Of a DNA stretch of 26,279 bases, positions 1 to 22,818 are shown one piece after another. The position numbers and the translations under genes are program-made. Positions within the stretch are counted from its first letter, which is position 1; each line of letters opens with the position of its first letter. This stretch comes from a virus. Below the pieces are notes generated by a model. That model was not told the origin of the DNA, ran no database searches, and saw only the letters and a list, made by a program, of their open reading frames with translations. Where the stretch lies: positions 1 to 26,279 of the IMG/VR virus record IMGVR_UViG_3300008448_000539. One strand, given 5' to 3'.

Positions 1-765
1 GCCGTCTAATGAGGTTCTATTATTCGCAATTGATAATAAATTACTACCAGCATATTGTAAATTTGCCCCTACTATTTTTGGCGTAAAATAGGCGATCTCG
101 TTTCCAGAAAGAATTGCATCAACTATTAATTTGCGTTCAACCGATTCCGTTGCAAAAGATCTTGATATTTCTGCACTGTTTGATAATGCTGAACTATCGC
201 TGTATAAACGCAATCTAGCTAAGTGAGTAGGATCTGATAGTGAGCAGCTAACTAATAAATATGTACGTGGAATTGAAGTACTTAATGTACCAACTTTTAT
301 TTGATCTGGGCTTAATGTTTGTTGAATAGAAGGTAACGTTACTCTATTACTAATATTTATTGAAGAATTTTCTAACAAATATCTGTTCACGGTTACTGTC
401 GGAAATAATCCAGATCCAGTATTATCAACTTTAAAATGTGTTAAACTTGCAGTTGGAACTGATATTACTCCATACACAACGGGGTCTACCGTATATGTCC
501 CCGCCGCAGTCATATTAAAATCTCCTACTAATGCAATTGAAGCGGAGATATTTCTATCATCAAACGTTCTCGTTTGTTCTTGCAAATTCATTAAACTTTC
601 TTGATTATCATAAAATCTAATTCTACATGGTGCAGTTGTATTAATTCCAAGCAAAATGTATGCAGATCCAAGATCTACAGATCCCGTACCAGAATCATTT
701 GTTTGAAACGTAATATTATCCCGAGTTAACCGCATTCCTGAATTTATGTATTCTGCTAATCCCAT
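1..765 (-). CDS. Unrecognised beta-rich virion-like protein, 3' end beyond the window
   Basis: An open frame starts at ATG 765 and stays open for 255 codons to the left edge, so the C-terminus is missing. The N-terminus begins MGLAEYINSGMRLTRDNITF and is followed by alternating hydrophobic and Ser/Thr/Asn/Gly stretches (for example SGTGSVDLGSAYILLGI at about residues 25-41). This composition is typical of extended beta-structure in phage appendage proteins. No signal peptide, membrane segment or catalytic motif is visible. The Shine-Dalgarno site is poor for this ATG; the next in-frame ATG is at residue 11. A palindromic candidate promoter lies 17-30 bases upstream, so the gene may form its own transcription unit after the glycosylation operon. 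The family is not recognised. A tail or fibre accessory protein is the likeliest role, by composition and neighbourhood only. I am confident that it is a gene and not confident of its function. Confidence 0.75.
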   Translation of the reverse strand, partial: MGLAEYINSGMRLTRDNITFQTNDSGTGSVDLGSAYILLGINTTAPCRIRFYDNQESLMNLQEQTRTFDDRNISASIALVGDFNMTAAGTYTVDPVVYGVISVPTASLTHFKVDNTGSGLFPTVTVNRYLLENSSINISNRVTLPSIQQTLSPDQIKVGTLSTSIPRTYLLVSCSLSDPTHLARLRLYSDSSALSNSAEISRSFATESVERKLIVDAILSGNEIAYFTPKIVGANLQYAGSNLLSIANNRTSLDG

Positions 766-805: not shown

Positions 806-2602
806 TTAGTTTTCTCTACGCTGTTCTGGTGTGTAGTGACATATTCTGTTATGATTTATAGGAGATGCTAATAATACTGCCGGATTGATATACCCTTCTC
901 GTGTTTTTTGATACATATAACTCATCCACGTTTGTTCGTATGGGTGCACCCATTCAGTCTCTAAAAACATTTTATAATTTCCTTTTTTATTAACTATCAT
1001 CGGCCAATTTGCATAATAAATTTCACCGGATATATAAGATATATTTTCATAAGTATCTATTTTATCAAATTTAGTTCTAGGAGCATTGGGATCTATTCCT
1101 GAAATGGGTAGTTTATCATAGTCAGGCCATACAGCAGTTCTTACTTCTTGCGGAACATTATACCAAGAAACTTGAATATTATTATCCATATATACTTCAC
1201 TAAATGACAATTTCAAAAAATCAAATTCTTCCTTTGCCATTATTTGATGAATAGCTTTATATAAATTAGGAATATAATTTCTAAACCCATTTCTACAAAA
1301 CGTAGGTACCTCTGGTGCGTGGAGGCACATATCATCTTCAAAAAATAAATAATAATCACTATCGCTTTCTTGAAAGTGTTTAGCGGCAAACATTCGACCT
1401 CTATTTATTCCTAAATTTTCACCGGTAATTATTTGTTCGAAATTATATTTATCACATAATTCATTATACCTAGCCATGACTGTTTGATCATTTGAATTAT
1501 TAATTAATATTTTTCGTGGACGATCTAACCATTCAGAATGTGCTTCGAAACTTTTTAGTAAAGTTTCAAATTGTTCTGGAAAATTAAATGATAATACGTA
1601 TAATGAAGTTTTATTTATTTTTTCGTTATACGCTCCTTTAAAAAGGTTGCGCGAAGTTGTTTCAACCAATTCCAACTCAGCGGAATCATTTAAAAGATTT
1701 TGTATATATTTTACAATTAATCCATTTCCATCCAAAGAATATCTTCGATATATATGTGGTTCTAAATGCGCCATCATACTAAACAAAGTTTCTTCGGTAC
1801 CCATCGCATTATTATTTAAAGTCTTATCTAATAAATGATAATATGTAGAATGAGCATTTGATATAAAATCTTTGTGTCCTCCAAACAAACCACCCCTACA
1901 AACATATTTAACATCACAATTAGTATAATTTTTAATTATATCATACTTAAATCCATGAATTTCGTCTTGTGTTTCATATGGATAGCTTAAGAATAAAAAT
2001 GTATTTAAGTGCGGTATAATTTTATCCAAACAACGTTCTTTTATAAAATAATTTTCATATACGGTATTTGTTATACCCGCATCTAACCAAATAAAATATT
2101 CCGTATTAAATACGTCCATTATTTTTGCATCATGTAACATGAACATTTTAGACTGTACTATTGGATTGTACCACTCTAACGTAGCCTGTGGACTATGTTT
2201 TAACCAACCATGTTCTCCTGTTAAATTAAGCCATTCCGGAGAAGATCTTATTTGTTGTGTTCTATCCCAAAACGGAGAATATAAATTTTTAATATCGGTT
2301 AATTCAAAATTTCTTACATAAGTATTTGCCGGTGTTCTATATTCCCATACAATATGTTCCAGTTCTTTTGGAACATATATAAATAAATTTACTGGTATTT
2401 GTAAAAATTTTTTAAAGTTTTCGATATAATGATCAAATGATCTATCTAAACGATTAATATTCCACAACCCAGTGACTACTGTTAAATTTGGAGTAACTTC
2501 TAATGTATTATAATTTATTGATTCTTTAATTTTTAATCGTTGTTCTGGTGGTAGTAGATTTATAATATCCAGTAACTTTTGCTCAATTACATCATTATTC
2601 AT
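806..2602 (-). CDS. Two-domain glycosyltransferase: HtrL/YibB-like domain plus GT-A domain
   Basis: This 598-aa protein appears to join two sugar-transfer domains. Residues about 40-300 resemble the HtrL/YibB family: a start like TVVTGLWNINRLDRSFDHYI, then YNPIVQSKMFML and EYFIWLDAGI, where the last acidic residue is the usual candidate for metal and nucleotide-sugar binding. Residues about 330-598 look like a GT-A (GT2-like) fold: TSLYVLSFNFPEQFETLL, then ILINNSND, ENLGINRGR and YYLFFEDDM at about residue 417, whose EDD is a DXD-type metal site. The start overlaps the stop of the carbamoyltransferase gene by ATGA, and an AAGGA site lies about 9 bases upstream, so the two are translationally coupled. 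It is the last gene of the seven-gene operon. Both domains are inferred from motifs; donor and acceptor sugars cannot be read. The region is very AT-rich (13 G+C in bases 1921-1980). Confidence 0.72.
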   Translation of the reverse strand: MNNDVIEQKLLDIINLLPPEQRLKIKESINYNTLEVTPNLTVVTGLWNINRLDRSFDHYIENFKKFLQIPVNLFIYVPKELEHIVWEYRTPANTYVRNFELTDIKNLYSPFWDRTQQIRSSPEWLNLTGEHGWLKHSPQATLEWYNPIVQSKMFMLHDAKIMDVFNTEYFIWLDAGITNTVYENYFIKERCLDKIIPHLNTFLFLSYPYETQDEIHGFKYDIIKNYTNCDVKYVCRGGLFGGHKDFISNAHSTYYHLLDKTLNNNAMGTEETLFSMMAHLEPHIYRRYSLDGNGLIVKYIQNLLNDSAELELVETTSRNLFKGAYNEKINKTSLYVLSFNFPEQFETLLKSFEAHSEWLDRPRKILINNSNDQTVMARYNELCDKYNFEQIITGENLGINRGRMFAAKHFQESDSDYYLFFEDDMCLHAPEVPTFCRNGFRNYIPNLYKAIHQIMAKEEFDFLKLSFSEVYMDNNIQVSWYNVPQEVRTAVWPDYDKLPISGIDPNAPRTKFDKIDTYENISYISGEIYYANWPMIVNKKGNYKMFLETEWVHPYEQTWMSYMYQKTREGYINPAVLLASPINHNRICHYTPEQRREN

Positions 2603-4254
2603 ACGAAAAATCCTTTTTTTCTAAAATACACATTTTCAATTAATAGACAATCAAGTTGAGTTTTGTTATAAATTTCAAAACCATCTTTTACCGTTGATAA
2701 AATTGGCTTTCCATTTACATTAAATGAAGTGTTTAATAATACCCCTACCCCAGTAGCATCTTCTAATTTTGATAATAAATTATAAAGCCATTCATTTTGA
2801 GCTTTAGTAACCGTCTGTACTCTTGCAGTATTATCTACATGAGTAATAGATATTAGTTTTTCTCTCCACTCGGGCCTAACCACTGGACAAAAACTCATCC
2901 ATCTAGATTCAAAATTCCATTCAAAATATTTATCAACATCTTCCAATCTAACTACCGGTGCAAATGGTCTATACCATTCTCTATTTTTAACTTTTTCATT
3001 TAATACATTTTTCATATTCGGTATAGAAGGATTACATAAAATACTTCTATTTCCCAACGCACGAGGACCATGTTCTGAATTGCCTCTCATAACACCGACA
3101 ATACTTCCTTCCACAATATCATTTAATAAAATATCGGAATGTATTTTGAAATAAGGATTAAATACTTGTTCTGTAGTCAATTCTCGTACTGGTAGTGATT
3201 GTGCATAATCACTTAATAAATCTATATCTAATATAGGAATTCCCATATAGGTAAGATCTATTGGATCAGATGGCTTCAAATAATTTAATAACGAACCAAT
3301 TGCTATTCCACAATCACTTGGATTAGGTCCAACAAAAACAGATTTATTAAACTCATTAACCAATTTAGTATTTAATATAATATTTAGTGCACATCCTCCC
3401 GCCATGCAAATTGGCAAATTAGGATACATTTCCATGTATGGTCGCGCTACTTCTAAGAAACATTCCTCAAATGCTTTTTGTGAAGTTGCTGCTATGTCAT
3501 ATGCAAGTTGTCCATCCAATCTGTCATTTTGATCAAAAGTAACTCCGATTTCATTGCCTAATGTGTTTAATAATTCTATATAATTATGACCTTGTGGGTC
3601 TTGTTTATAAAAATTAATAAAATGTGGAAGCCATTCGTAGTTAATATTTCCATAGGATACTAATCCCATTATTTTTCCAGAATATACTAGGTTACCATCT
3701 CCTATACTTTCATATCGTATATCTTTTAAATAATGTCCAAATATCATATAAGGAAATCCTAAATCATAATAAATATGAGGACTGCCTTTAATAGGATTTA
3801 ATACAGATGTTAATAACGTTACACCAGAACTTCGTTCAGCCATATATATATTGAATTTACCGTCATTTCCACCACCGTCAAACGAAAAAATTAATGCTTC
3901 TTTGTATGGAGATTGATAAAATGCTCCAGCAGCATGAGACTCATGATGTTTTTGAGAAATCTTAGTTTTTGCATTTATATAGCTATGCATAATATATGTG
4001 ATCTCATCATAAATAACCTCAGTATTTTGATGTAAACAAACATCAAATTCTTCAATATTATATGTTTTTTTAATCCAATTCATTATTGATTGTACAACAA
4101 TGTGTGGGTTATTTACCACTTTGTATTGAGATGTTGCTGCATTTTTTGCATTACAAAATCGTTCAACTTCTATAATTGGTTGTATAACTCCATCTATACT
4201 AAGTGCTATAGCAGAATTATGAGAACCATACATACTGATAATCGTGTCTTTCAT
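2599..4254 (-). CDS. O-carbamoyltransferase, NodU/CmcH/TobZ family
   Basis: This 551-aa protein has the full length and both halves of the NodU/CmcH/TobZ family, which transfers a carbamoyl group from carbamoyl phosphate to a hydroxyl, via carbamoyl-adenylate, on sugars or sugar-bearing molecules. The N-terminal Kae1-like half opens with YGSHNSAIALSIDG and VERFCNAKN, then carries the metal-site signature HHESH (residues 103-107) and the nucleotide-binding loop FDGGGNDG (125-132). The C-terminal YrdC-like half has VGVMRGNSEHGPRALGNRSI at about residues 380-400 and REWYRPFAPVV near 423, both family hallmarks. A GGAGA site precedes the ATG. The gene follows its upstream neighbour by one base and overlaps the next by ATGA. 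In this operon the likely target is a hydroxyl of the glycan built by the neighbouring transferases. The family call is firm; the substrate is inference. Confidence 0.92.
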   Translation of the reverse strand: MKDTIISMYGSHNSAIALSIDGVIQPIIEVERFCNAKNAATSQYKVVNNPHIVVQSIMNWIKKTYNIEEFDVCLHQNTEVIYDEITYIMHSYINAKTKISQKHHESHAAGAFYQSPYKEALIFSFDGGGNDGKFNIYMAERSSGVTLLTSVLNPIKGSPHIYYDLGFPYMIFGHYLKDIRYESIGDGNLVYSGKIMGLVSYGNINYEWLPHFINFYKQDPQGHNYIELLNTLGNEIGVTFDQNDRLDGQLAYDIAATSQKAFEECFLEVARPYMEMYPNLPICMAGGCALNIILNTKLVNEFNKSVFVGPNPSDCGIAIGSLLNYLKPSDPIDLTYMGIPILDIDLLSDYAQSLPVRELTTEQVFNPYFKIHSDILLNDIVEGSIVGVMRGNSEHGPRALGNRSILCNPSIPNMKNVLNEKVKNREWYRPFAPVVRLEDVDKYFEWNFESRWMSFCPVVRPEWREKLISITHVDNTARVQTVTKAQNEWLYNLLSKLEDATGVGVLLNTSFNVNGKPILSTVKDGFEIYNKTQLDCLLIENVYFRKKGFFV

Positions 4255-4255
4255 A

Positions 4256-5074
4256 CTATACTCTCCATGGCCCAGCCCCTACTGTCCAAGGCCGTTCTTG
4301 TTCTAAATCATGATCTACATGAAATAAACCTATGTATGGATCTGGATGTGTGATTTTTAATAAATCGTATATAACTGCCAACATCAATTCTTCATTGTGC
4401 ATAAACGTTCCGCGAAAATGTTTTATTGTGGTTGTTTTATACATCTCTACAATTAATTCATGCCACATTGAGAAAAATTTATTCATAAACTCAACGTCAC
4501 TGAACACATAAAATCTTGCGGCTTCGTCGTATACCATGATGGATTTATTTAGTTTTGTATTCCAAATACGCTCTACAATTTCTTCTATATATTGTATTTT
4601 AATAAAATCATGTTCATAATTAGGCCATAAAGAAACGGCATTATATAATATATTTTTATTGGACAATAAAACATCATTTATTAAATCTAGTCTAATAGTA
4701 GAGTCGGTTGCGAGTAATCCTACGTTTGTTATATTATGTTGTTGTGCTAACTTAAGGTGAAATCTCATTGCAGAAAAAGGAAATGAATAATCTTTTTGTA
4801 AAAAAGCATTTCCATATTCCTCTAAATCATTAGTTTTATAAAAATACTCATATGGTTCTATTTCTGGATATTCTTCATAAAAATCATGTAATTCTTTAAT
4901 TATTATGTCATCAGAAAAAACTTCAGAAAAATATTCTTTATCATCGGTAATAACAAAATACTGAATATTTTCATGCACATATCTATTTTTTAATAAATTA
5001 AACGCATTTTTCTTGTATGTAGGACCGGCTACTGTATAGCATAATGCAATTTTTTCTGAGAGATTTGTTATCAT
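4256..5074 (-). CDS. Unassigned protein in the glycosylation operon, possibly a GT-A-like transferase
   Basis: This 272-aa soluble protein has no signal peptide or membrane segment. Its N-terminus (IALCYTVAGPTYKKNAFNLL, then IQYFVITDDKEYF) reads like the first beta-alpha-beta units of a GT-A Rossmann-like fold, with VITDD in a position where nucleotide-sugar enzymes often carry acidic residues. GLLATDSTIRLDL at about residues 118-130 could be the DXD-like strand, although the spacing is unusual. The C-terminal part is rich in aromatic residues and His (FHVDHDLEQERPW). It is packed one base from the carbamoyltransferase and one base from the GT-B-like gene, with an AGGA site inside the upstream gene, so it belongs to the same translational unit. 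It may be a glycosyltransferase or another glycan-tailoring enzyme. I do not recognise a specific family, and the transferase idea rests mainly on context. Confidence 0.6.
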   Translation of the reverse strand: MITNLSEKIALCYTVAGPTYKKNAFNLLKNRYVHENIQYFVITDDKEYFSEVFSDDIIIKELHDFYEEYPEIEPYEYFYKTNDLEEYGNAFLQKDYSFPFSAMRFHLKLAQQHNITNVGLLATDSTIRLDLINDVLLSNKNILYNAVSLWPNYEHDFIKIQYIEEIVERIWNTKLNKSIMVYDEAARFYVFSDVEFMNKFFSMWHELIVEMYKTTTIKHFRGTFMHNEELMLAVIYDLLKITHPDPYIGLFHVDHDLEQERPWTVGAGPWRV

Positions 5075-5075
5075 T

Positions 5076-5987
5076 TTATAATCCTAATGAAGAAACTATA
5101 TGCTTCAATCTATTTTCGTCGCTACAATTTTCTAAATAATACTTTCTTGCGTTAGTTGATATGAACGTAAGAAATTCTTTATCATCCTTTACTTCATTAA
5201 ATCTTTCAATGTATGCTTGAACGTATTCATCACCACCTTCACGATCTTTGTTCGCGTCCCATGGAAAATTTGATCTATCAACTGCTATGTAATGATAGTT
5301 TGGAATAAGTGGTGGGTTCAATTGAGTCATGTATTCTAATCTAAAATTAGGCAACCCTATCGCCATATATTCAATTTCTCTACAACAAATTTCTGGAACA
5401 CCTGTTACAGAAAATCCCACTTTGTATCGTATTGCATGATCAAAATAATCACTTCCTTGCACTAATGGACCCATGACTCCCTTGTCTCGGAGCCTAGGTA
5501 AGTCTCCTCTTCCAGTAGATGATAAACAAAACATCTGATCAAATAAATTATCATAAGACATAAACTGTCTTTGTCTATACCAGTAATTGTGATTTATTGT
5601 TGGTCTAAACGTATAATACGTTGTTGGTAAAATTTTAAAGTTATAATGTTCTTCTGCTTTAAAATATCTAGGAAACCATCCATAATATTGCGTTAACATC
5701 AATATATCATTTTTATTATTTCTTTTAGCAAAAACATTATCAAAAAATCCAGTACGACTTTCGGAAAAAGTTATTCCTCGCAATACATCATTTTCAACAT
5801 CTTCAATTAAAATTTCACAATCTGATAATGCGTAATCATAGTTTGGTAATTGCAAAAAATTACATTTCTGATGTATTAAATTTACCTCATAATTATTTTT
5901 TAAATAAATGACTAATTCTAAAAAAACATCATGCCATGTAAGATATGGATAACATGTTTCTAAAAAATAAACATTTAGTTTTTTCAT
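5076..5987 (-). CDS. GT-B-like glycosyltransferase
   Basis: This 303-aa protein begins MKKLNVYFLETCYPYLTWHD, like the N-terminal strand of GT-B enzymes. Its C-terminal half carries GVPEICCREIEYMAIGLPNF (about residues 195-215), which matches the E-x7-E type nucleotide-sugar binding region of GT1/GT4/exostosin-like transferases, where a conserved Glu contacts the donor ribose and a following 'G-P' turn marks the loop. The last 60 residues form a charged helical segment (YVQAYIERFNEVKDD) typical of the C-terminal helix of these enzymes. At 303 aa it is shorter than most two-domain GT-B enzymes, so the N-terminal domain is probably reduced. AAGGA lies 8 bases before the ATG; gaps are 2 bases upstream and 1 base downstream. 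The fold is moderately well supported; donor and acceptor are unknown. Confidence 0.65.
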   Translation of the reverse strand: MKKLNVYFLETCYPYLTWHDVFLELVIYLKNNYEVNLIHQKCNFLQLPNYDYALSDCEILIEDVENDVLRGITFSESRTGFFDNVFAKRNNKNDILMLTQYYGWFPRYFKAEEHYNFKILPTTYYTFRPTINHNYWYRQRQFMSYDNLFDQMFCLSSTGRGDLPRLRDKGVMGPLVQGSDYFDHAIRYKVGFSVTGVPEICCREIEYMAIGLPNFRLEYMTQLNPPLIPNYHYIAVDRSNFPWDANKDREGGDEYVQAYIERFNEVKDDKEFLTFISTNARKYYLENCSDENRLKHIVSSLGL

Positions 5988-5989
5988 AA

Positions 5990-6511
5990 TTATTTCCTTT
6001 CACAGAACAACACACCCAATCTATCTCCGTTGTGTGTTATTGGTGCATATAATTTAAGAACAAATCCCCATTCTGTTATCTTTTGAGTAAATAATTCATT
6101 TAATTCTTTACTATGAACTTCTATTGCTAATTCATCAATATTAGAAAGATGAGATGCATTTAATTCCAACAAAACTTTTTCATGTCCTTCTATATCACAT
6201 TTTAATGCATTTACTTCCGGATATTTTTGTAATAGCTCAATAATGTCACTTGTATTTAATATATTTTTAGTTTCAAAAATAAAATCGGTATTATCACCGA
6301 GCTTACTTTGATAGTAACTTATTTCATCTGAATTAGAATCAATTCCAATTACTAATTTGGCTGACTCCCTATTAAAATAAACTGGGCTAAATTCTTCAAA
6401 CGTTTCCGTGTACCATCGCCCACATCCCAAATCAAGAACTGTTTTGTTTTGTACATTGAAATGCTTCCAATGAACAGATGAATCTTCAGTAGTAATTATA
6501 TAATCAGCCAT
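5990..6511 (-). CDS. FkbM-type SAM-dependent methyltransferase
   Basis: This 173-aa protein, from the start chosen here, has the S-adenosylmethionine motif I VLDLGCG at residues 25-31, an acidic post-motif strand LVIGIDSN (53-60), and ALKCDIEGHEKVLLEL (102-117). The last resembles the 'K-x-D-x-E-G-x-E' signature of FkbM-family methyltransferases, which O-methylate sugars and related natural products. The frame is open further upstream to a GTG at 6556, but that start would overlap the preceding gene by 35 bases and has no clear ribosome site. ATG 6511 is preceded by GAGGATATATTA, a good Shine-Dalgarno at normal spacing, and leaves a 10-base gap. In this operon it probably methylates the glycan. 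The methyltransferase fold is secure; the sugar substrate is inference. Confidence 0.82.
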   Translation of the reverse strand: MADYIITTEDSSVHWKHFNVQNKTVLDLGCGRWYTETFEEFSPVYFNRESAKLVIGIDSNSDEISYYQSKLGDNTDFIFETKNILNTSDIIELLQKYPEVNALKCDIEGHEKVLLELNASHLSNIDELAIEVHSKELNELFTQKITEWGFVLKLYAPITHNGDRLGVLFCERK

Positions 6512-6521
6512 TAATATATCC

Positions 6522-7772
6522 TCATAAAATGTATTCCGTTCGTTCACACCAACCACGCTCTTTACTATACGGCCATATTACCATCTTACGAGGAATTATA
6601 TTTGTAGTAAAAAATTCTTCGTAATGAATAGTTGTTCCGTTTTCCATAAATTCTTTTAATTTATTCCCATCAATATATCGATGATGTATTTTTTGATTAT
6701 GTTCATCATCAAATGCTACTAATATAGACGCATAATCCATATTAGGAAAATCATGCTTATATATTGTTACTAAATGATAGAATGATTTTACCAATGAACG
6801 TTTCCATTCAATATCCGACATCGGTGGATTTGGTGGTAAATTGTTATCTAACGTATATTGTTGCACGGATTTATTTTTAAAACATACTCCTGCATATCGT
6901 TCGTACTCATGCAATGTTCTAACGGTTCCTAAATCATAACCACTAAGATTAAATTTATTATTTTCAGTACGAAGTAATTGACGTATTTTTGCCCGTGCTC
7001 TATCCTGTGCACTCCACCAATTTTCTCCGCGCTTGTATTGATCGTCCCAAATTAATTTACCGCTGCGCTCTTCTCGCATAGTAGCATGAAATATTACCAA
7101 TCGATGTGGATGAAATAAATCCCATCCATGGGTAAAGGAGCGAACCGTTAAATTTAATTCTTCTCCACTGAAATAAATGTCAGGGTCGTGCTTAATTTCT
7201 TTTGCCCATTCGGTTCTAGCAAATGCAAAATGCCCAGAAATAAAACGAGAAGGAATTGGTTCCGTTAATTCTTGCCAATTAGGAATGCCCGTGGGTCGGA
7301 TAAAAATAGTTCCATGTGGATAGAAACACGCAAATTCTTGCTTCCACGGTTGCATTGTACGTTCCGCTGGATCATTAAATGGATTGTAGTATGGAAGATA
7401 TCCGGTTAAGATAGGTTTAAATTTTTTCTTTTCCAACTGCGTATGCATTTTAATTAAGATATCATCCCAATCATCAACAAATCTATGATGGGCATCTAAT
7501 TGTAAGATATAATCTTCATCGGTAATTAATTCATTAATTCTTGCTCTTGCATACGGTAATCCTTTTGCTTGTTCAAAAGGAATATCTATAATTTTAAATC
7601 GCGCATCGGTTCTGTATTTATCAACATTATCAAACTCATCTAATGGATTATATTGACGACATATCCCAAACCGAAGGCGTTTTGGGTATTTCGCACGAGC
7701 AAGTGCGTCTTCTATCGTAGGAATTAATTCAGGTTCTCTATACGCAGGAAGATGTATAAATATTTTTTTCAT
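6522..7772 (-). CDS. GlcNAc-transferase-like glycosyltransferase (GT60 / PF11397 type), copy 2
   Basis: This 416-aa protein is a paralogue of the gene immediately upstream, aligning over its whole length. Shared blocks: LPAYREPELIPTIEDAL (residues 8-24) versus IASYRDPELLPTLKDCL; LRFGICRQ (33-40); LPYARARIN (72-80); LQLDAHHRF (90-98), with a DxHH acidic/His metal-site candidate; PSRFISGHFAFA; and YFSGEELNLTVRSF. These blocks match the glycosyltransferase family containing the Dictyostelium Skp1 hydroxyproline GlcNAc-transferase, which adds GlcNAc to protein. The start ATG overlaps the stop of the upstream copy by ATGA, so the pair is translationally coupled. The last about 130 residues are less like the family core and may set specificity. 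Protein O-glycosylation is therefore plausible, but the donor could be another UDP-sugar. Confidence 0.82.
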   Translation of the reverse strand: MKKIFIHLPAYREPELIPTIEDALARAKYPKRLRFGICRQYNPLDEFDNVDKYRTDARFKIIDIPFEQAKGLPYARARINELITDEDYILQLDAHHRFVDDWDDILIKMHTQLEKKKFKPILTGYLPYYNPFNDPAERTMQPWKQEFACFYPHGTIFIRPTGIPNWQELTEPIPSRFISGHFAFARTEWAKEIKHDPDIYFSGEELNLTVRSFTHGWDLFHPHRLVIFHATMREERSGKLIWDDQYKRGENWWSAQDRARAKIRQLLRTENNKFNLSGYDLGTVRTLHEYERYAGVCFKNKSVQQYTLDNNLPPNPPMSDIEWKRSLVKSFYHLVTIYKHDFPNMDYASILVAFDDEHNQKIHHRYIDGNKLKEFMENGTTIHYEEFFTTNIIPRKMVIWPYSKERGWCERTEYIL

Positions 7773-9031
7773 TCTGGGAATACCCCCGTCAGTCTATCTA
7801 CAAAACCTTTTGATTCACTTTGCGGCCAAATGACCCAGCTATGTGGTAGCGCATCAGAATAAAAATTTCTCCATACATGAACAAATTTATCTTGTTCCAT
7901 AGGAATGCTTAACCATTGAGCGATTTCTTCTTTCGAAGCATCTTCTCTATAAATCTCATTCCCATCTTTATCATGAAATGCAACTGCCCAAAAAATATAA
8001 TCATTTTCTGTGAATGTTGGTTTATATACATCTATACACATTCGATGGTATGTTTTGAGTCCAGTTAGATGATCGTTTTCATTTTTTGAAACGGGCGGTT
8101 GTTGTTTTTCCAAAGTACGAGTATGTACTCGTCTAGTACTAAATTCTAGACCAGCGTATATTTCATAGTCTTTCAATGTTCGTACATTAGCTTCCAATGT
8201 GGCATGTTGAGACATTTCCATTCCTAACAATTCTCTATTATGCTTATGAGAAATATTGTTAAGCTCAACCCAATTTCCATGATCGTCCCAATGCTTCTTT
8301 TTATTATTACGTATGTATTCGTGCCATATAATAGATTTTTGTGGCGCGAAAAGATCATATCCCGCCACATAAGCTCGTACTGACAAATTAATTTCTTCTC
8401 CGTGAAAATAATATTCTGGATCATAGGGTACTTCCTTACAGAATTTTCCATCTGCAAAAATAAAGTGCCCAGAAATAAACCGTGCTGGGATTGGTTTAGT
8501 TCTTTGTTTGTAATCATCGATGGTATGTGGGAGAAAATGCACAGGGCCTTCCGGCGCAAATCTATCAAATTCCATAATCCATGGAATATCTATTCGATCA
8601 GCGGGATCGTTTGCTGGATTAAAACTTGGTAAATACGAACTTAGTAATGGTTTTTTGCAGGTAGGAGTTCGTAACTCTTCTAACATATACACAAGTTCAT
8701 CGTCCCATCCCTGAATAAATCGGTGATGAGAATCTAATTGTAGGGTATATGTTTGTTTTTTATATGCCGTATTTAATTGATGTCGCGCCCAGCATGGACC
8801 TCTAGCATCACGATAATCAATATCAATGATAGTGAAACGAGGATCATCTTTATACTCGTCTAAATTGTCCCATTCTTCGTATGGAGAATGTTGCCATGCA
8901 ATTCCAAAAGACAATCGTTCGGGATGTGTTGCCTTTGCCAAACAATCTTTTAACGTAGGCAATAATTCGGGGTCGCGATATGATGCGATTTGTATATAAA
9001 TTGTTGGTAACTTAGTTGTTTTTTTCTTCAT
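7769..9031 (-). CDS. GlcNAc-transferase-like glycosyltransferase (GT60 / PF11397 type), copy 1
   Basis: This 420-aa protein is the first gene of the seven-gene operon. Family blocks in order: IQIASYRDPELLPTLKDCLA (13-32), RLSFGIAWQ (39-47), ARGPCWARHQ (76-86), LQLDSHHRF (97-105; probable metal and nucleotide-sugar site), IPARFISGHFIFAD (181-194), and YYFHGEEINLSVRAY (207-221), where the paired Glu residues are the likely catalytic acids. This is the pattern of the Skp1-type GlcNAc-transferase family (GT60), best known for adding GlcNAc to protein hydroxyproline in protists. Residues 1-8 are Lys/Thr-rich and there is no signal peptide, so it acts in the host cytoplasm. AGAGGA precedes the ATG, and a candidate promoter lies in the 59-base gap upstream. 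The family is well supported; the acceptor in this phage is unknown. Confidence 0.85.
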   Translation of the reverse strand: MKKKTTKLPTIYIQIASYRDPELLPTLKDCLAKATHPERLSFGIAWQHSPYEEWDNLDEYKDDPRFTIIDIDYRDARGPCWARHQLNTAYKKQTYTLQLDSHHRFIQGWDDELVYMLEELRTPTCKKPLLSSYLPSFNPANDPADRIDIPWIMEFDRFAPEGPVHFLPHTIDDYKQRTKPIPARFISGHFIFADGKFCKEVPYDPEYYFHGEEINLSVRAYVAGYDLFAPQKSIIWHEYIRNNKKKHWDDHGNWVELNNISHKHNRELLGMEMSQHATLEANVRTLKDYEIYAGLEFSTRRVHTRTLEKQQPPVSKNENDHLTGLKTYHRMCIDVYKPTFTENDYIFWAVAFHDKDGNEIYREDASKEEIAQWLSIPMEQDKFVHVWRNFYSDALPHSWVIWPQSESKGFVDRLTGVFPE

Positions 9032-9090: not shown

Positions 9091-9300
9091 TTAATACGGG
9101 GTAGTTATCCAAGAAGCACCATTCCAAAATTTCACGGGTTTTGTGACCCATGCGGCACCCGTCCACACTTTCATCGGTTTTGCTTCCCACGCCGCGCCTG
9201 TCCACACTTTGATTTGTCCAGTGGTTCCAACTACATCGGCAAGTGAAACGTCAAAGGTTCCCGTACCATTATCACGTAATGAAATATCAAAGACTGACAT
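9091..9300 (-). CDS. Small protein with three 13-residue WxGxxW repeats
   Basis: This 69-aa protein splits into two parts. Residues 1-30 (starting MSVFDISLRDNGTGTFDVSL) resemble a short beta segment seen in phage structural proteins. Residues 31-69 are three exact-length repeats: KVWTGAAWEAKPM, KVWTGAAWVTKPV and KFWNGASWITTPY. Such W-G-x-x-W repeats are common at the ends of phage tail and tip proteins. Its ATG lies 3 bases after the stop of the 654-aa gene with no strong ribosome site, so it is probably made by translational coupling. A small tip, adhesin or capping subunit working with the 654-aa protein is a reasonable guess; it could also be a detached C-terminal module of that protein. 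Confidence 0.78.
   Translation of the reverse strand: MSVFDISLRDNGTGTFDVSLADVVGTTGQIKVWTGAAWEAKPMKVWTGAAWVTKPVKFWNGASWITTPY
9094..9210 (-). repeat. Three tandem 39-base coding repeats (WxGxxW units)
   Basis: Three direct 39-base units (9172-9210, 9133-9171, 9094-9132) encode K-V/F-W-T/N-G-A-A/S-W-x-x-x-P-x. The first two are closest to each other, suggesting a recent duplication; the third is more diverged and closes the protein. Copy number could vary by slippage or recombination. Confidence 0.85.
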
Positions 9301-9303
9301 AAA

Positions 9304-11268
9304 TTATGCCGCCGTACCTGTAGCTGACCGACCGATTAACACACTACTTTCCACTGCTTCTGTATATACGTTCGATGTGTTATCATACCACGTAATACTA
9401 TACGACCCATTTCCGGTTCGGGTAGTACTGCCAATCACTAAATTATTTGTATCATCATGAGCAGTAATCGTTACCGTACCACCGGCACTATTGGTTATTG
9501 TACCCGCAATTGTATACGTAATGGCATGATAGGTCAACATCATATAGGATTGAAAAATTGCACCGTTGGTTGTACTGACTTGTAAATTGGTATCATACCG
9601 ATATTGCCGAGTGGTTTCAATATCTAACCGATTGGTATCGGGGTCATTCGGCCATCGTTTCATATCATCTCGTGCTCGTGCAAACATCACACTGGGTGAT
9701 ATTTCCGCAAGACTTTGATAGATAAAGTTATAAAATGGACGAAATCCTGCGCCTTCTCCTTCTCCTGCTTGAACTTCTCCGAGAAATGCGCCCCCAATTG
9801 TTCCTGCTGAGGTACCAAACGGCATTAAAATTAATTGAAATCCTGCACCCGTTAACCAATAGTTCGTTTCGGGAATAATTGGTGTGGTGTCACTTGTTAA
9901 TTGTCTACGCATTCCGGTAGTAGCTGGCCATCCGCTAACATATGACGTAATTCCCCAAATGGTGGTATGACTATGAACACCATCACCATCAGCATGTTTA
10001 CCACTGGTATAATTTAAGAATAATAATGCCGACATGTTCGATGGAATAGTTCCCAACGTGGTTCCCGTAGCAAACCAATCTACGACTAATTCATTATATC
10101 CTCGTGCTAACGTTAACCCTGCCACTCCACCAACAGCACCCGCATCAATTCGGCGCATGTGCGTCATCCCCCCAGCACGAACACTTGCCGCCGGATGTGC
10201 ATATACACGACTTGCTTGACTTCCCACACGGAAATCTACGCTGACTGCACCCGATGCTACATATGAGGCCATAATACCCGATTGTACTAAGGTAATGGTA
10301 CCAGGTTCTTGAATATTTAATTGACGAGTAAATCGTGATTTGTCAGCCGTGGTAGACCCGCCTGATAATCCTGCTTCGTCCATAATAGGCGTTTGTATAC
10401 TATTAATAATTGTGGTACTAGTACTATGGTCATATTCATACGTTACGACTAGTACGCCAGAAAAACACGGGGTTCGTCGTGCGTTTACTAATCCTGCTCT
10501 TGCTTGTATGGATTGTGCTGCTGTGGTATTTAACGTAGAAGTAAGTACATCAATTCTTCGATACGAGATGTCGGTGTTTAATGATGTGGCATACGTTAAA
10601 TCTGCTACCGTGGTGGTTCCTCCGTCATATGATACGTCTAAGGTAGATGTGGTAACCACAGAGGCACCAGTATGCATTAACATTTCAAAGAATATATTTC
10701 GGTAGACTTTACTTGCTTCGGGTAGAAACGTATCCAATGCGGGAATTTGATTTGCTAATCCACCAACGTTCACATATGCAGCAGTTAAATCACCGTTGTT
10801 TCCGTCGATGGGTATTTTAACAGTTTTAATACGAGTCGTTGCCGCACTATCATCGTATTCATAGGTAATAATAATTTTTGCCGATGCATTTTGTGTTGCA
10901 TTTCCTGTATGGGTCATACTGACGGTTACCGTTTGACTTGTGCCCGTAAAGTTTGTTTGGAAATATGCGGTTGCATCGCGCAGAGTATGAAAACTTTGAT
11001 TTTCACCACTATTCGTAATAGTTTGCGTGACGGTATTGGTACTGACGGCAACTGCGCCAATTTGTACACCCGTTGATATTACCGTGGCACTTGCTCCAGC
11101 GGAACCACCATCTAAACACGAAAAATCTACAATAACACTGCGAAACGTTCTACTCGTGGTTTCTGGAATATTGACGGTTATTGGTGTATAGGTTCGTGCC
11201 GTGGCACTTCCCACTGATCCTGAGCTAAATGGAAATGCATATTCAATTGTTTTCGTTCGTAACGCCAT
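9304..11268 (-). CDS. Large beta-rich virion structural protein with C-terminal Ig-like domain
   Basis: This 654-aa protein is rich in Thr/Ser/Ala/Val with no signal peptide. It has internal repeats: a strand pair IIITYEYDDSAATTRIKTV (about residues 132-150) recurs as LVVTYEYDHSTSTTIINSI (about 275-295), each followed by a P-I segment, which suggests duplicated beta-sandwich domains of about 145 residues. The middle region holds Gly-rich loops (GEVQAGEGEGAGF). The last about 75 residues (YTIAGTITNSAGGTVTITAH onward, then GNGSYSITWYDNTSN) look like a carboxypeptidase-regulatory or Ig-like beta-sandwich. Such a domain is often surface-exposed on phage particles. AGGA precedes the ATG. Neighbours are fibre genes upstream and the 69-aa repeat protein downstream. 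I do not recognise the family; tail-fibre accessory or particle decoration is inferred from composition and position. Confidence 0.7.
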   Translation of the reverse strand: MALRTKTIEYAFPFSSGSVGSATARTYTPITVNIPETTSRTFRSVIVDFSCLDGGSAGASATVISTGVQIGAVAVSTNTVTQTITNSGENQSFHTLRDATAYFQTNFTGTSQTVTVSMTHTGNATQNASAKIIITYEYDDSAATTRIKTVKIPIDGNNGDLTAAYVNVGGLANQIPALDTFLPEASKVYRNIFFEMLMHTGASVVTTSTLDVSYDGGTTTVADLTYATSLNTDISYRRIDVLTSTLNTTAAQSIQARAGLVNARRTPCFSGVLVVTYEYDHSTSTTIINSIQTPIMDEAGLSGGSTTADKSRFTRQLNIQEPGTITLVQSGIMASYVASGAVSVDFRVGSQASRVYAHPAASVRAGGMTHMRRIDAGAVGGVAGLTLARGYNELVVDWFATGTTLGTIPSNMSALLFLNYTSGKHADGDGVHSHTTIWGITSYVSGWPATTGMRRQLTSDTTPIIPETNYWLTGAGFQLILMPFGTSAGTIGGAFLGEVQAGEGEGAGFRPFYNFIYQSLAEISPSVMFARARDDMKRWPNDPDTNRLDIETTRQYRYDTNLQVSTTNGAIFQSYMMLTYHAITYTIAGTITNSAGGTVTITAHDDTNNLVIGSTTRTGNGSYSITWYDNTSNVYTEAVESSVLIGRSATGTAA

Positions 11269-15100: not shown

Positions 15101-18100
15101 CCACCTTTCTTTGCTACTACAATCTTTCGTGGGTCTTGTCCCACTTCGTATAGTGGAGCATTTAAAGCAATTTGTGTTTTTAAGAAATTGTCAGTACCTT
15201 GTACTTTACCCAACGATCCAGTATGTTCAATTAATACGTCCGTCGTACAGTTTTCAAAGTTTAGAGCAATGGCATCAATACTTGGTGCTGATCCTGTTTG
15301 TGGTGCCCAAATACCACGAATCCAACGTTGGAAGTTGACACCAGTTAATCGGAGTTGTCCACCGTTATATACTTTGAATCCTGTTCCTCGTGCTGCACCT
15401 GTTGCACGGGTTAACAGACATCCATTGACAATGAAGGTACATCCCGGAGCGTCGGCTAGTGCAAATATTTGGTCATTATCGGTTCCTGCAACGCCACCGT
15501 TTGTAGAGGTAACATTACGTAATTGCATACGTCCAATACCGCCGTCAGAACCAGATGTAACGTAGAATCCTACATCAAATGATTTACTTCCCGATGTAAA
15601 TCCGCCATATTTAACATTAGAACATTGAAGGATACAATTTCCACTACTTCCACTACCCACAACTTTTGCGTTGGTATAGTTGGTGCCAAATCGAACGTTT
15701 TCTACATACGCAATTGCATTTGTTTGCGGTGTCGTTGGTGAAGAGTATACTACCGCCGATGTATTTGCTGCGGTAGACCCTTGTATCTGCATATCGATGA
15801 CCATTGTTTGGTCGGCCATGACGAAAATGGTATTTGCAGGATTTGATGCAGAAACAATCGTAGAAGTTGAAGAATCACCCTTGATTGCAATATACGGCTT
15901 TAACGTAATAGTATCTTCGATGAACACACCGGGATATACACGTACCGTGTACGTATTTGCTGCCGTTGCATCGGTAATACTGTCTACAGCAGACTTAATT
16001 GAATTATACTGTGTGTCACTTCCAGGTAAACCCACCGTTACTAAATTATCTATAAAAGATATTGGTGCGTATGAAGCAGTTGTTGCATATGACGCGGTTG
16101 TAGCAAATGAACTACTACCCAATAAGGAACCAGTGATACTAGCAATATTTGCTGAACTTGCTGATACCCCACCAGATCCAGACACTAACAATGAACCAGT
16201 AATTATTGCACTTCCACTAAACGGGAATGCAGAGTTCGCAACGGCGTTAATTGTTATGGTATCAGTTAATGCATCGGTTGTAATGGTTACATTCGTACCA
16301 GCAATCAATGTTAACGTATCATTTGATTGGTCTGCTACTACATCACTTTGTCCTGCAACTGATATAGTCCCGAATGAGTTTCCACCACCAACACTTGGCG
16401 CCCAACTTGCCGATGTTGCAAACGATGATGAAATAGCAACCGATGAAGTCTGTGCATATGACGCCGTGGTTGCAGCACTTGCACTAATTGCATTATTTGC
16501 CCAACTACTGGTTCCCAACAAACTTCCTGTAATTCCCCCTGATGCCAGTCTCAACGAACCCGTTATTTCCGTATCACCGATAACTTGTAATTCAACAAGT
16601 GCACTACTAGATAGTGTTAATGAACCTGTTATGATTTGATTTCCTATTGTTCGTTGCGAACCTGTGACAACCAATGATCCTGTAACATCCAATCCACTTG
16701 GGAACGTAATGAACCCATCAAAGTATGATGCAGTAAGTGCAGTTAACGCAAGACTACTCGTTCCCAGTAACGAACCCGTAAATGATCCAGTAAATGATCC
16801 AGTATTAATTTGTACACTACTGGAAACTACTCCGGCTGGAAGAATAAGACTTCCACTGATGGTTCCTTGTACACTTAATGATCCTGTAAATTGGTGTGTA
16901 TCATCCACCGTATCACCGAACTTTGTAGACCCACTTTCGTAAATGACCGATGAGGTTACATATTCCGCAATAAATTTTTCCGCAACAATGGTTCCACCAA
17001 CCGTTAAATCTTGCGTAATTTTTACACTTCCGGTGATGTCTAATGAACCCGATAATGTATGTTGATTACTATCACGTAACGTTAATTTCGTAGAAGCGGC
17101 AACATTATCACTACCCACGAATATCATCACTTCTTCACCGGCATCAATTGCACCTAAATGTAAGTGACCACCCGTAGAATACACATAAGAATCATTTGGT
17201 CCACCAATAGTTCCCGCATAACTGTCACCATTGATTCCCATGTTTACGTAATTGGTAGTTTCATCCCCATTATTTGCCGTAGCAACGATATCACTGGATA
17301 CAGAATCACCTGACCCTGTATTTTTCATATTAATTTGTGCGTAACCGTTTACTTCACCAATAGCAGTAATAACATTGTATGTAGTTGTAAACGGTACAGC
17401 GCGTACACGGAGGGCATCAGGTGCGCCTGGTGTTATTTCGTTAGTGTTTATATTAACACTACCCGTGGGATCTATAAATACTCTAGCGTTATTTGTAGCG
17501 TTTCCAGGACCAGTGAATAATATAATTTTTTTATCCGGTGACAAATTACCAATTAGTAAATCACTACCAGTTGTATACAAATATGCATCCAACGGTCCAC
17601 CAATTCCACCATCCACCGAATATGTACTACTATTAATTCCCAAGTCGATGAATCCCGCGAGTTCTGTTCCTGTATCCGCGGTTGCCACAATATCGGATGA
17701 TGCGGTATTTCCCGCACTGAAATTTTTGACATTTAGTTGAAGATAACTATCAATTTCCCCATGCGCCGAAATTAAATTATATGAGTCGGTAACTCCAGCA
17801 AATACCCCAAATCGATCTGGAGCTTCTGGAGTATGTTGTGTGGTTGCTCCTAAGAGGACACTTGATGCCGTTTGATATAATAAGCTAGATGATAATGATG
17901 TTTCTGTTTTCCACAAAGGAATATAATCTACTACCCCACCATTGATATTAGATGCGGTAGACGCGTATGACGCCGAATTAATATTTGTGAGTTGACTACC
18001 ATCACCCTTAAATGCGGATGCGGTTATACTAGATGCGGATATAGCACCGCTTACAATTAATGAATTTAAATTAGCATCGGAACCCGATACTACCAGTTTC

Positions 18101-22323: not shown

Positions 22324-22818
22324 TTAGTAGTTCAATACACAGTAATCTGGTTGAATTGTCAACGTGATTTCTGCAACTTCACCACTATCAGTCCACTCCA
22401 ATCCCATAAAATCAGCTTTGGTGATTTGTGCACCCTTGATAATCCATTCTTCAACCTTATCACCAACAGGTCCAAGAACTTGGAGTGTCAAATCTTTCTT
22501 ATAGAATTCTGCGTAACCATCACGACCCGTTACCGATTCGTGGTGGAGACGTACCCATTCCATAACTGCTTGTGCACCTGATGGTACAATTGGGTCATAG
22601 AGGGTCATTTCCATCGTCTGCCACACACTAACACCCTTGACGAAACGAACGGTGTTAATGTGTGGTAACTTGATTGCTTCTTGTTGTAATACCGGACGAG
22701 CTACTTTCTTAACAAGATACGCCGGAACACCTTCAATCAACAATAAAAATCTATTTTTGACTTTTGGTTCAAACGCTGTAAAGAAAATTTCATTTTCGGC
22801 TACTATGTTGTTTGCCAT
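22324..22818 (-). CDS. 19: Tail tube protein, T4 gp19 family
   Basis: This 164-aa protein is the subunit of the inner tail tube, stacked as hexameric rings through which DNA passes. It is one residue longer than T4 gp19 (163 aa). Characteristic blocks are FLLLIEGVPAYLVKKVARPV (residues 22-41), LPHINTVRFVKGVSVWQTME, MTLYDPIVPSGAQAVMEWV and IKGAQITKADFMGLEWTDSG, ending ITLTIQPDYCVL. These are the beta strands and connecting loop shared by gp19-type tubes and related baseplate proteins. AGGAG lies 7 bases before the ATG, a strong site suited to a protein needed in over a hundred copies. It follows the sheath gene by 57 bases and is followed by a strong hairpin. Family assignment is firm. Confidence 0.93.
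   Translation of the reverse strand: MANNIVAENEIFFTAFEPKVKNRFLLLIEGVPAYLVKKVARPVLQQEAIKLPHINTVRFVKGVSVWQTMEMTLYDPIVPSGAQAVMEWVRLHHESVTGRDGYAEFYKKDLTLQVLGPVGDKVEEWIIKGAQITKADFMGLEWTDSGEVAEITLTIQPDYCVLNY

Follow-up and report, generated by a model that had tools for sequence, protein, structure and literature searches.

A probable mucin-type O-glycosylation cassette in the tail gene region of a T4-like phage

Most of what is known about mucin-type O-glycosylation comes from eukaryotes, and glycosylation of the virion has been documented in few phages. In protists, mucin-type O-glycans are started on Ser/Thr-rich mucin domains by polypeptide alpha-N-acetylglucosamine (GlcNAc)-transferases of family GT60 (PMC8724618), a family that transfers alpha-GlcNAc to protein Thr/Ser or to hydroxyproline (PMC8724618, PMC6939170). 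Among phages, XacN1 is reported from proteomics to contain at least two glycoproteins, and the authors of that study suggest that the glycosyltransferases of the phage make them (PMC5852040). A literature search found no paper on GT60 in phages or on mucin-like phage tail proteins. Here we describe seven adjacent genes at positions 806-9031 of IMG/VR record IMGVR_UViG_3300008448_000539, a 26,279-base fragment of a T4-like contractile-tail phage that was analysed over its whole length (the window). The block probably is a phage-borne mucin-type O-glycosylation cassette that acts on the phage's own virion, with a mucin-like stalk protein encoded after the adjacent gene vir1 as its main acceptor.

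The seven-gene block and its enzymes

All genes considered here lie on the minus strand of the window. The seven genes of the block are packed as tightly as a sequence-only reading of the window had claimed, with spacing of -35 to +2 nucleotides and two ATGA-type overlaps of 4 nucleotides. That reading also placed a virion-like gene past the block; such a gene, vir1, is present but is interrupted by the contig end.

7769-9031, minus strand: GT60a, putative UDP-GlcNAc:polypeptide alpha-GlcNAc-transferase and chain initiator (PF11397, E 6e-70; phrog_24687, E 2.5e-142; QLDSHHRF, containing DxH)
6522-7772, minus strand: GT60b, second GT60 paralogue, 38% identical to GT60a (PF11397, E 1e-56; QLDAHHRF)
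5990-6556, minus strand: small S-adenosylmethionine (SAM)-dependent methyltransferase, weakly FkbM-like, GTG start (TIGR01444, 21.9 bits against a cut-off of 37.7)
5076-5987, minus strand: GT-B glycosyltransferase with a POGLUT (GT90)- and GT4-like fold (AlphaFold2 model, predicted local distance difference test (pLDDT) score 90; Foldseek POGLUT1, E 8e-6; POGLUT2, Z 14.4)
4256-5074, minus strand: protein of no assigned family (homologues in the cassettes of loci L157, L150, L101 and L154)
2599-4254, minus strand: TobZ/NodU-type O-carbamoyltransferase (PF16861, E 5e-61; PF02543, E 7e-25; phrog_1601, E 3e-118; TobZ 3ver, E 5e-40)
806-2602, minus strand: two-domain HtrL_YibB and GT-A glycosyltransferase (PF09612, E 1e-14, residues 36-285; GT-A from about residue 321, with an EDDM motif)
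1-765, minus strand: vir1, first 255 amino acids, cut by the contig end (vir1 homologues in related phages)

Both GT60 paralogues match profile PF11397 over its full length and above the curated cut-off of 21 (193 and 237 bits), which bears out their earlier description as GT60-like transferases. The D100-x-H102 motif, which we take to be the metal-binding site of the family, is invariant in eight aligned GT60 sequences (QLDSHHRF or QLDAHHRF), and the GT60 profile found no solved relative among the PDB sequences. The two enzymes are putative transferases of GlcNAc from UDP-GlcNAc to protein Thr/Ser. It is possible that one acts as starter and the other as filler of partly glycosylated tracts, or that they serve two types of acceptor.

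At the other end of the block, the HtrL_YibB domain scores 55.2 bits against a cut-off of 24.1, and the protein is not a YibB equivalog (44 bits where 265 are needed). Its GT-A half is modelled with a pLDDT of 93 and has LH3, COLGALT1 and R699 as best Foldseek matches, while the GT-A profile found no relative in the PDB; the two-domain architecture proposed from the sequence is thus upheld by a family match and a confident predicted fold. The GT-A domain is 40-71% identical across 46 relatives, with an invariant EDDM motif, and the N-terminal part is variable. The GT-B model at 5076-5987 is likewise confident, in keeping with the earlier assignment, and its POGLUT2 match is effectively tied with those to GT4-type enzymes (Z 13-14). 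For both models, protein O-glycosyltransferases are the best matches or among the best: LH3, COLGALT1, mimivirus R699, POMGnT and GalNAc-T2 for GT-A, and POGLUT for GT-B. The predicted folds thus resemble largely protein-modifying enzymes, although fold likeness alone shows no function.

The remaining middle genes are of uneven identity. The product of 5990-6556 is a small SAM-type methyltransferase for which the earlier FkbM label is not established, and its Pfam methyltransferase matches all lie under the cut-off. The carbamoyltransferase has both the N- and the C-terminal domain and keeps the GPRALG-R motif in its alignment to TobZ. For the methylated, carbamoylated oligosaccharide that had been proposed, the methyl part therefore draws on a weak match and the carbamoyl part on a solid one. 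TobZ-type enzymes carbamoylate hydroxyl groups. Of the DNA-specific positions of the MetaGPA study (TobZ W408, G421 and R423), by our count the enzyme of the window retains the G and the R and has V in place of W408; as the text of that study does not specify which letters are typical of DNA enzymes, we did not use this as evidence. The protein encoded at 4256-5074, left unassigned in the sequence-only reading too, had no family match in profile searches, and its homologues turned up in similar cassettes only. The block has a GC content of 0.29-0.37, against 0.40-0.47 for most adjacent structural genes, and so was probably acquired separately from them.

A conserved module and mucin-like tracts across phages

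Scanning viral contigs with eight GT60 query sequences gave more than 580 stretches among the matches listed, and 60 dereplicated loci were used for neighbourhood counts. An HtrL-type protein lies near GT60 in 45 of the 60 loci, and in 32 of the 40 where both flanks are long. Between them the genes differ: GT10 fucosyltransferases, GDP-fucose synthase-like epimerases, GT25, GT34, PLOD-type glycosyltransferases, FkbM or other methyltransferases, and carbamoyltransferases all occur. In dozens of phage contigs, then, the module keeps GT60 at one end and the GT-A domain at the other while its middle varies, as would be expected if the glycan had a fixed core and otherwise differed from strain to strain. 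Module gene order is kept across distant phages. Two individual cassettes are of interest in their own right. That of L002 (12501-15784) encodes a GT10 fucosyltransferase together with a protein resembling GDP-fucose synthase, which suggests that its chain is fucosylated, and L346 (8937-17066; phage G009) carries, soon after a mucin-like gene, a second cassette that encodes two carbamoyltransferases and a divergent pair of GT60-like proteins (26-29% identity).

Proteins with mucin-like tracts are found beside these modules. Long proteins of (TPSITTTPSIT)-like repeats lie near GT60 in L089 (1382 and 1549 amino acids) and L101 (1757 amino acids), and shorter Pro/Thr/Ser repeat proteins in L001, L103, L114 and L135. 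Under a strict criterion (60-residue windows with at least 50% Ser plus Thr and at least 8% Pro), a mucin-like open reading frame (ORF) occurs in 24 of the 60 GT60 loci, in 3 of 41 long loci with a sheath gene and no GT60 (p 2e-4), and in none of 38 random loci. A mucin gene stands directly 5' of GT60 six times where 1.95 are expected (p 0.01), which is supportive but weak.

The association also holds in reverse. We picked contigs solely by the DNA pattern for TP(S/T)(I/V)T-x-TP(S/T)(I/V)T, blind to GT60, which returned 80 records. Of these we scored 50, namely every one with at least three matches and, in addition, mostly longer ones; the control was a set of 38 contigs chosen by a random 16-mer. 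GT60 was present in 22 of the 50 mucin-pattern contigs and in none of the 38 random ones (p 4e-7), and in 14 of 34 against 0 of 16 when contigs of 25-100 kb were compared (p 0.002). Within the mucin-pattern set, the GT-A domain accompanied GT60 in 21 of 22 contigs and was absent from all 28 that lack GT60 (p 3e-13). These p-values are somewhat optimistic, as the 50 records include some near-duplicates (e.g., G008 and G064).

Among named phage records, GT60 related to that of the window occurs in three only, XacN1, CM1 and RAS14, and no named phage matched the window by megablast. XacN1 has GT60 (ORF334), a carbamoyltransferase (ORF333, 45% identical) and an HtrL/GT-A protein (40% identical in the GT-A half) in one run. 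Strict mucin-like ORFs number eight in XacN1 (260 kb, scanned in pieces) and four in RAS14, both GT60-positive, whereas none were found in the GT60-negative Mel-JY01, RaK2, Flavobacterium immuto, S-SRM01 and G005. Two of those of XacN1, ORF369 and ORF370, carry the annotation 'hypothetical protein' and follow the genes for the sheath and its stabiliser. Elsewhere in XacN1 (AP018399.1, 124048-133104), the tail-like paralogues ORF232 and ORF234-ORF237 form a row in which each protein has a Thr/Pro/Ser tract, either centrally or close to its end, and all are annotated as hypothetical.

The stalk beside vir1 and the choice of acceptor

Which virion protein might the cassette of the window modify? 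With the tail sheath as lineage marker, GT60-positive records were grouped by sheath or vir1 into four distinct phages, G001, G002, G006 (= G015) and G009 (= G008); the GT60-negative relatives include G005 (148 kb), G032, G033, G038, G040 and the complete Mel-JY01. In all four GT60-positive phages, vir1 is followed by a protein of 423-977 amino acids in total with the N-terminus 'FFPF(G/A)(I/V)P...NY(F/V)LC' and a Pro/Thr/Ser tract. In G005, G032, G033, G038 and G040, a distant vir1 is followed by a protein that shares this N-terminal anchor ('FFPFG.PTTSSFA' start) but carries collagen-like G-x-x repeats instead, in runs of 17-30 against at most 4 in the GT60-positive stalks. The stalk swap therefore tracks the cassette. 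The vir1 of the window is 54, 50, 51 and 38% identical to those of the four mucin-bearing relatives and about 30-34% identical to those of module-less relatives, and being of the GT60-positive kind it predicts that the next gene, one beyond the contig end, most likely encodes a mucin-like Pro/Thr/Ser-rich stalk protein. Thus, the comparison of related phages with and without the module, which had been suggested as a check on the sequence-only reading, singles out a mucin-like protein beyond the left end of the window, and not the fibres, as the gene product that varies with the cassette.

A scan of the viral collection with vir1 found no contig that overlaps the left end of the window; L004, whose sheath is 100% identical to that of the window, ends inside a fibre gene on the other side from vir1. 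Two further features of these lineages deserve mention. The module-less sisters L357-L359, L361 and L362 have several collagen-like (GPTGATG)n stalks with the same FFPFG anchor (e.g., L361, 4977-6620), and SHSDATTPHSD/FSNSTTPFSN repeats appear in some of them. In L344 (5148-10005; phage G001), four adjacent Cys-motif, radical-SAM/SPASM-like proteins are encoded downstream of the mucin-like gene.

From the gene content, gene order, co-occurrence and folds we infer a donor sugar, an acceptor, an order of steps and a benefit as follows. Acting in the cytoplasm on virion proteins that are still unassembled, GT60 would attach a first N-acetylhexosamine to Thr/Ser, and this sugar is most likely alpha-GlcNAc. 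A core sugar probably comes next from the GT-A half of the HtrL protein, which is nearly always retained alongside GT60. Extension and capping of the chain would fall to the GT-B enzyme, the methyltransferase, the carbamoyltransferase and other local middle enzymes; since the middle enzymes differ between phages, the chain structure would differ as well. The main acceptor would be the mucin-like Pro/Thr/Ser-rich stalk encoded after vir1, and other tail proteins may be modified too. A dense coat of O-glycans would make the stalk stiffer, protect it and diversify its surface.

Several observations weigh against a mucin-like stalk as the main acceptor. The window itself holds no mucin-like tract, so that its presence beside vir1 is an extrapolation, and among the relatives, the tract of G006/G015 is (TPTAT)n-like and misses the strict threshold, with G006 also lacking the GT-A partner. 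No mucin-like ORF lies within about 10 kb in 36 of the 60 GT60 loci. Conversely, 28 of the 50 mucin-pattern contigs are without GT60; some of these are fragments, but three exceed 170 kb, and phage mucins thus occur without the cassette. In L093, L108 and L137, the cassette and the genes around it are encoded on different strands. For XacN1, the main text of the proteomics study does not assign the glycoproteins to ORFs or name the mucin-like ORFs (PMC5852040). As for the large mucin-pattern contigs without GT60, G057 (270 kb), G049 and G065, their mucins may use other starter enzymes.

The surroundings of the block in the window are those of a contractile-tail region, with a sheath gene, identified by a PHROG profile match, and a tube gene at 22324-22818. 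The block had been placed directly downstream of giant fibre genes; it does lie among tail genes, but two other genes separate it from the fibres.

9091-9300, minus strand: 69-amino-acid protein with W-T/N-G-A repeats, a neighbour outside the cassette, just 5' of GT60a
9304-11268, minus strand: 654-amino-acid virion-like protein 5' of the cassette (38% identical homologue at the same place in L002)
22876-25230, minus strand: tail sheath, lineage marker for the comparison (phrog_23, E 1e-73)

The 69-amino-acid protein is built of VWTGAAWxxKP-type repeats. Scans for the T4-type late promoter TATAAATA and for sigma-70 promoters gave results at or below chance and thus no indication of the timing of transcription.

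An alternative to the stalk is that the virion acceptor is a tail protein encoded in the window, be it the sheath, the TGSFTG fibres with their high Ser/Thr content or some other one. The cassette sits between tail genes, the fibre proteins contain 22-32% Ser and Thr, and related cassettes adjoin the sheath gene in three loci (L131/L347, L101 and L157). However, L030, L037 and L040/G005 share the fibre family and the sheath and are without GT60 and the GT-A domain, and it is the stalk, not the fibre, that changes along with the cassette. Because module-less relatives have the same fibres, the specific targets favoured in the sequence-only reading, fibres or sheath, are not supported as such, and we consider this alternative unlikely; its broader proposal, that the virion proteins are glycosylated by enzymes of the phage itself, is well supported by the gene context, the comparative genomics and XacN1, which combines the same enzymes with reported glycoproteins. 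A modification of the host envelope, the other option raised there, appears less likely still. The cassette would then alter a host surface glycan, leading to serotype conversion or superinfection exclusion. Glycosyltransferases for O-antigen change are known in phages, FkbM, carbamoyl and fucosyl genes are present in O-antigen loci too, and HtrL/YibB is named for an Escherichia coli gene near lipopolysaccharide-core genes. Nevertheless, neither the 25 Pfam families listed for the cassettes nor the profile searches of the block include a flippase, polymerase or polyprenyl-phosphate transferase. A single hydrophobic segment occurs in 3 of 132 cassette proteins and three or more in none, and none of the seven block proteins has a predicted membrane segment. 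Moreover, the cassette has a late tail position, and characterised GT60 enzymes act on polypeptides.

It is very improbable that the cassette hypermodifies phage DNA to yield glycosylated and carbamoylated 5-hydroxymethyl bases. In favour of such a role, a phage carbamoyltransferase of the same superfamily makes 5-carbamoyloxymethylcytosine (PMC8670742), and 13 of 47 GT-A relatives weakly match a TET-associated glycosyltransferase model (best 6e-5); the general GT2 match is stronger (2e-7), and we judged the TET-associated matches to be superfamily noise. Tet_JBP, however, was found in none of 35 records, many of them fragments, in a search without a positive control, and a thymidylate synthase/hydroxymethylase homologue in 4 of these partly fragmentary 35; the record of the window, a fragment, matches neither Tet_JBP nor Thymidylat_synt. 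Glycosyltransferase neighbours, moreover, mark the carbamoyltransferases of unmodified DNA (PMC8670742), and the link to mucin-like proteins would be left unexplained. DNA modification and host-surface conversion thus both fit poorly. The least probable explanation is that the block serves to make or alter some soluble molecule of the host, or that it is an import in decay and plays no part in the virion. Its AT-richness relative to the surroundings and its variable middle genes might be read in this way, but the seven frames are open and tightly packed, relatives preserve both DxH and EDDM without exception, and the order is kept in distant phages.

Comparison with known systems

More broadly, we lean towards the view that phages, many of them aquatic and some cultured, build true mucins, i.e., Thr/Pro/Ser stalks with GT60-started chains and strain-variable caps (fucose, methyl, carbamoyl), and that a mobile cassette together with a mucin stalk replaces a collagen-like stalk. 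A widespread cassette tied to mucin-like stalks would, if real, account for a large number of phage genes that are now without annotation and provide soluble, cytoplasmic mucin-type enzymes that may function in bacteria. It would also raise the question of whether phage mucins serve in shielding, adhesion or stalk stiffness. The idea is directly testable, since the cultured phage XacN1, for which proteomics data are deposited (PXD008065), has both the cassette and mucin-like genes.

Mucin-type O-glycosylation of protists such as Dictyostelium and Trypanosoma cruzi (PMC8724618) resembles the proposed phage system in its GT60 starter family and in its variable outer sugars, with fucosyltransferases in some phage cassettes and Thr/Pro/Ser tracts beside the enzyme genes of relatives. 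The phage system differs in being cytoplasmic and bacterial, without a Golgi, and in its carbamoyl- and methyltransferase-type capping genes and its link to tail proteins. The glycosylation of Skp1 by Gnt1, a GT60 enzyme of Dictyostelium and Toxoplasma, has a cytosolic GT60 starter followed by soluble glycosyltransferases (PMC6939170), but it needs a prolyl hydroxylase and uses a single acceptor site on Skp1. A hydroxyproline model of this kind was set aside for the window, where no prolyl hydroxylase was seen; one relative has a dioxygenase-like gene, a small gene at 16536-17066 in the second cassette of L346 (G009) that might encode a hydroxylase.

Among phages, the carbamoyltransferase that MetaGPA linked to 5-hydroxymethylcytosine is of the same TobZ/NodU type, but it adjoins thymidylate-synthase homologues and acts on DNA bases (PMC8670742). 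Mycobacteriophage glycosyltransferases are thought to modify the capsid and tail-tube proteins of their own virions (Freeman et al. 2023, as described in PMC12619734), at sites that, by the same account, are the C-termini of capsid and tube subunits and not mucin-like stalks. The run of GT60, carbamoyltransferase and HtrL/GT-A genes in Xanthomonas phage XacN1 (ORF330-334), a phage with glycoproteins reported in the main text of its description (PMC5852040), corresponds to the block in the window, although XacN1 is a jumbo phage of another lineage and has one GT60 where the window has two.

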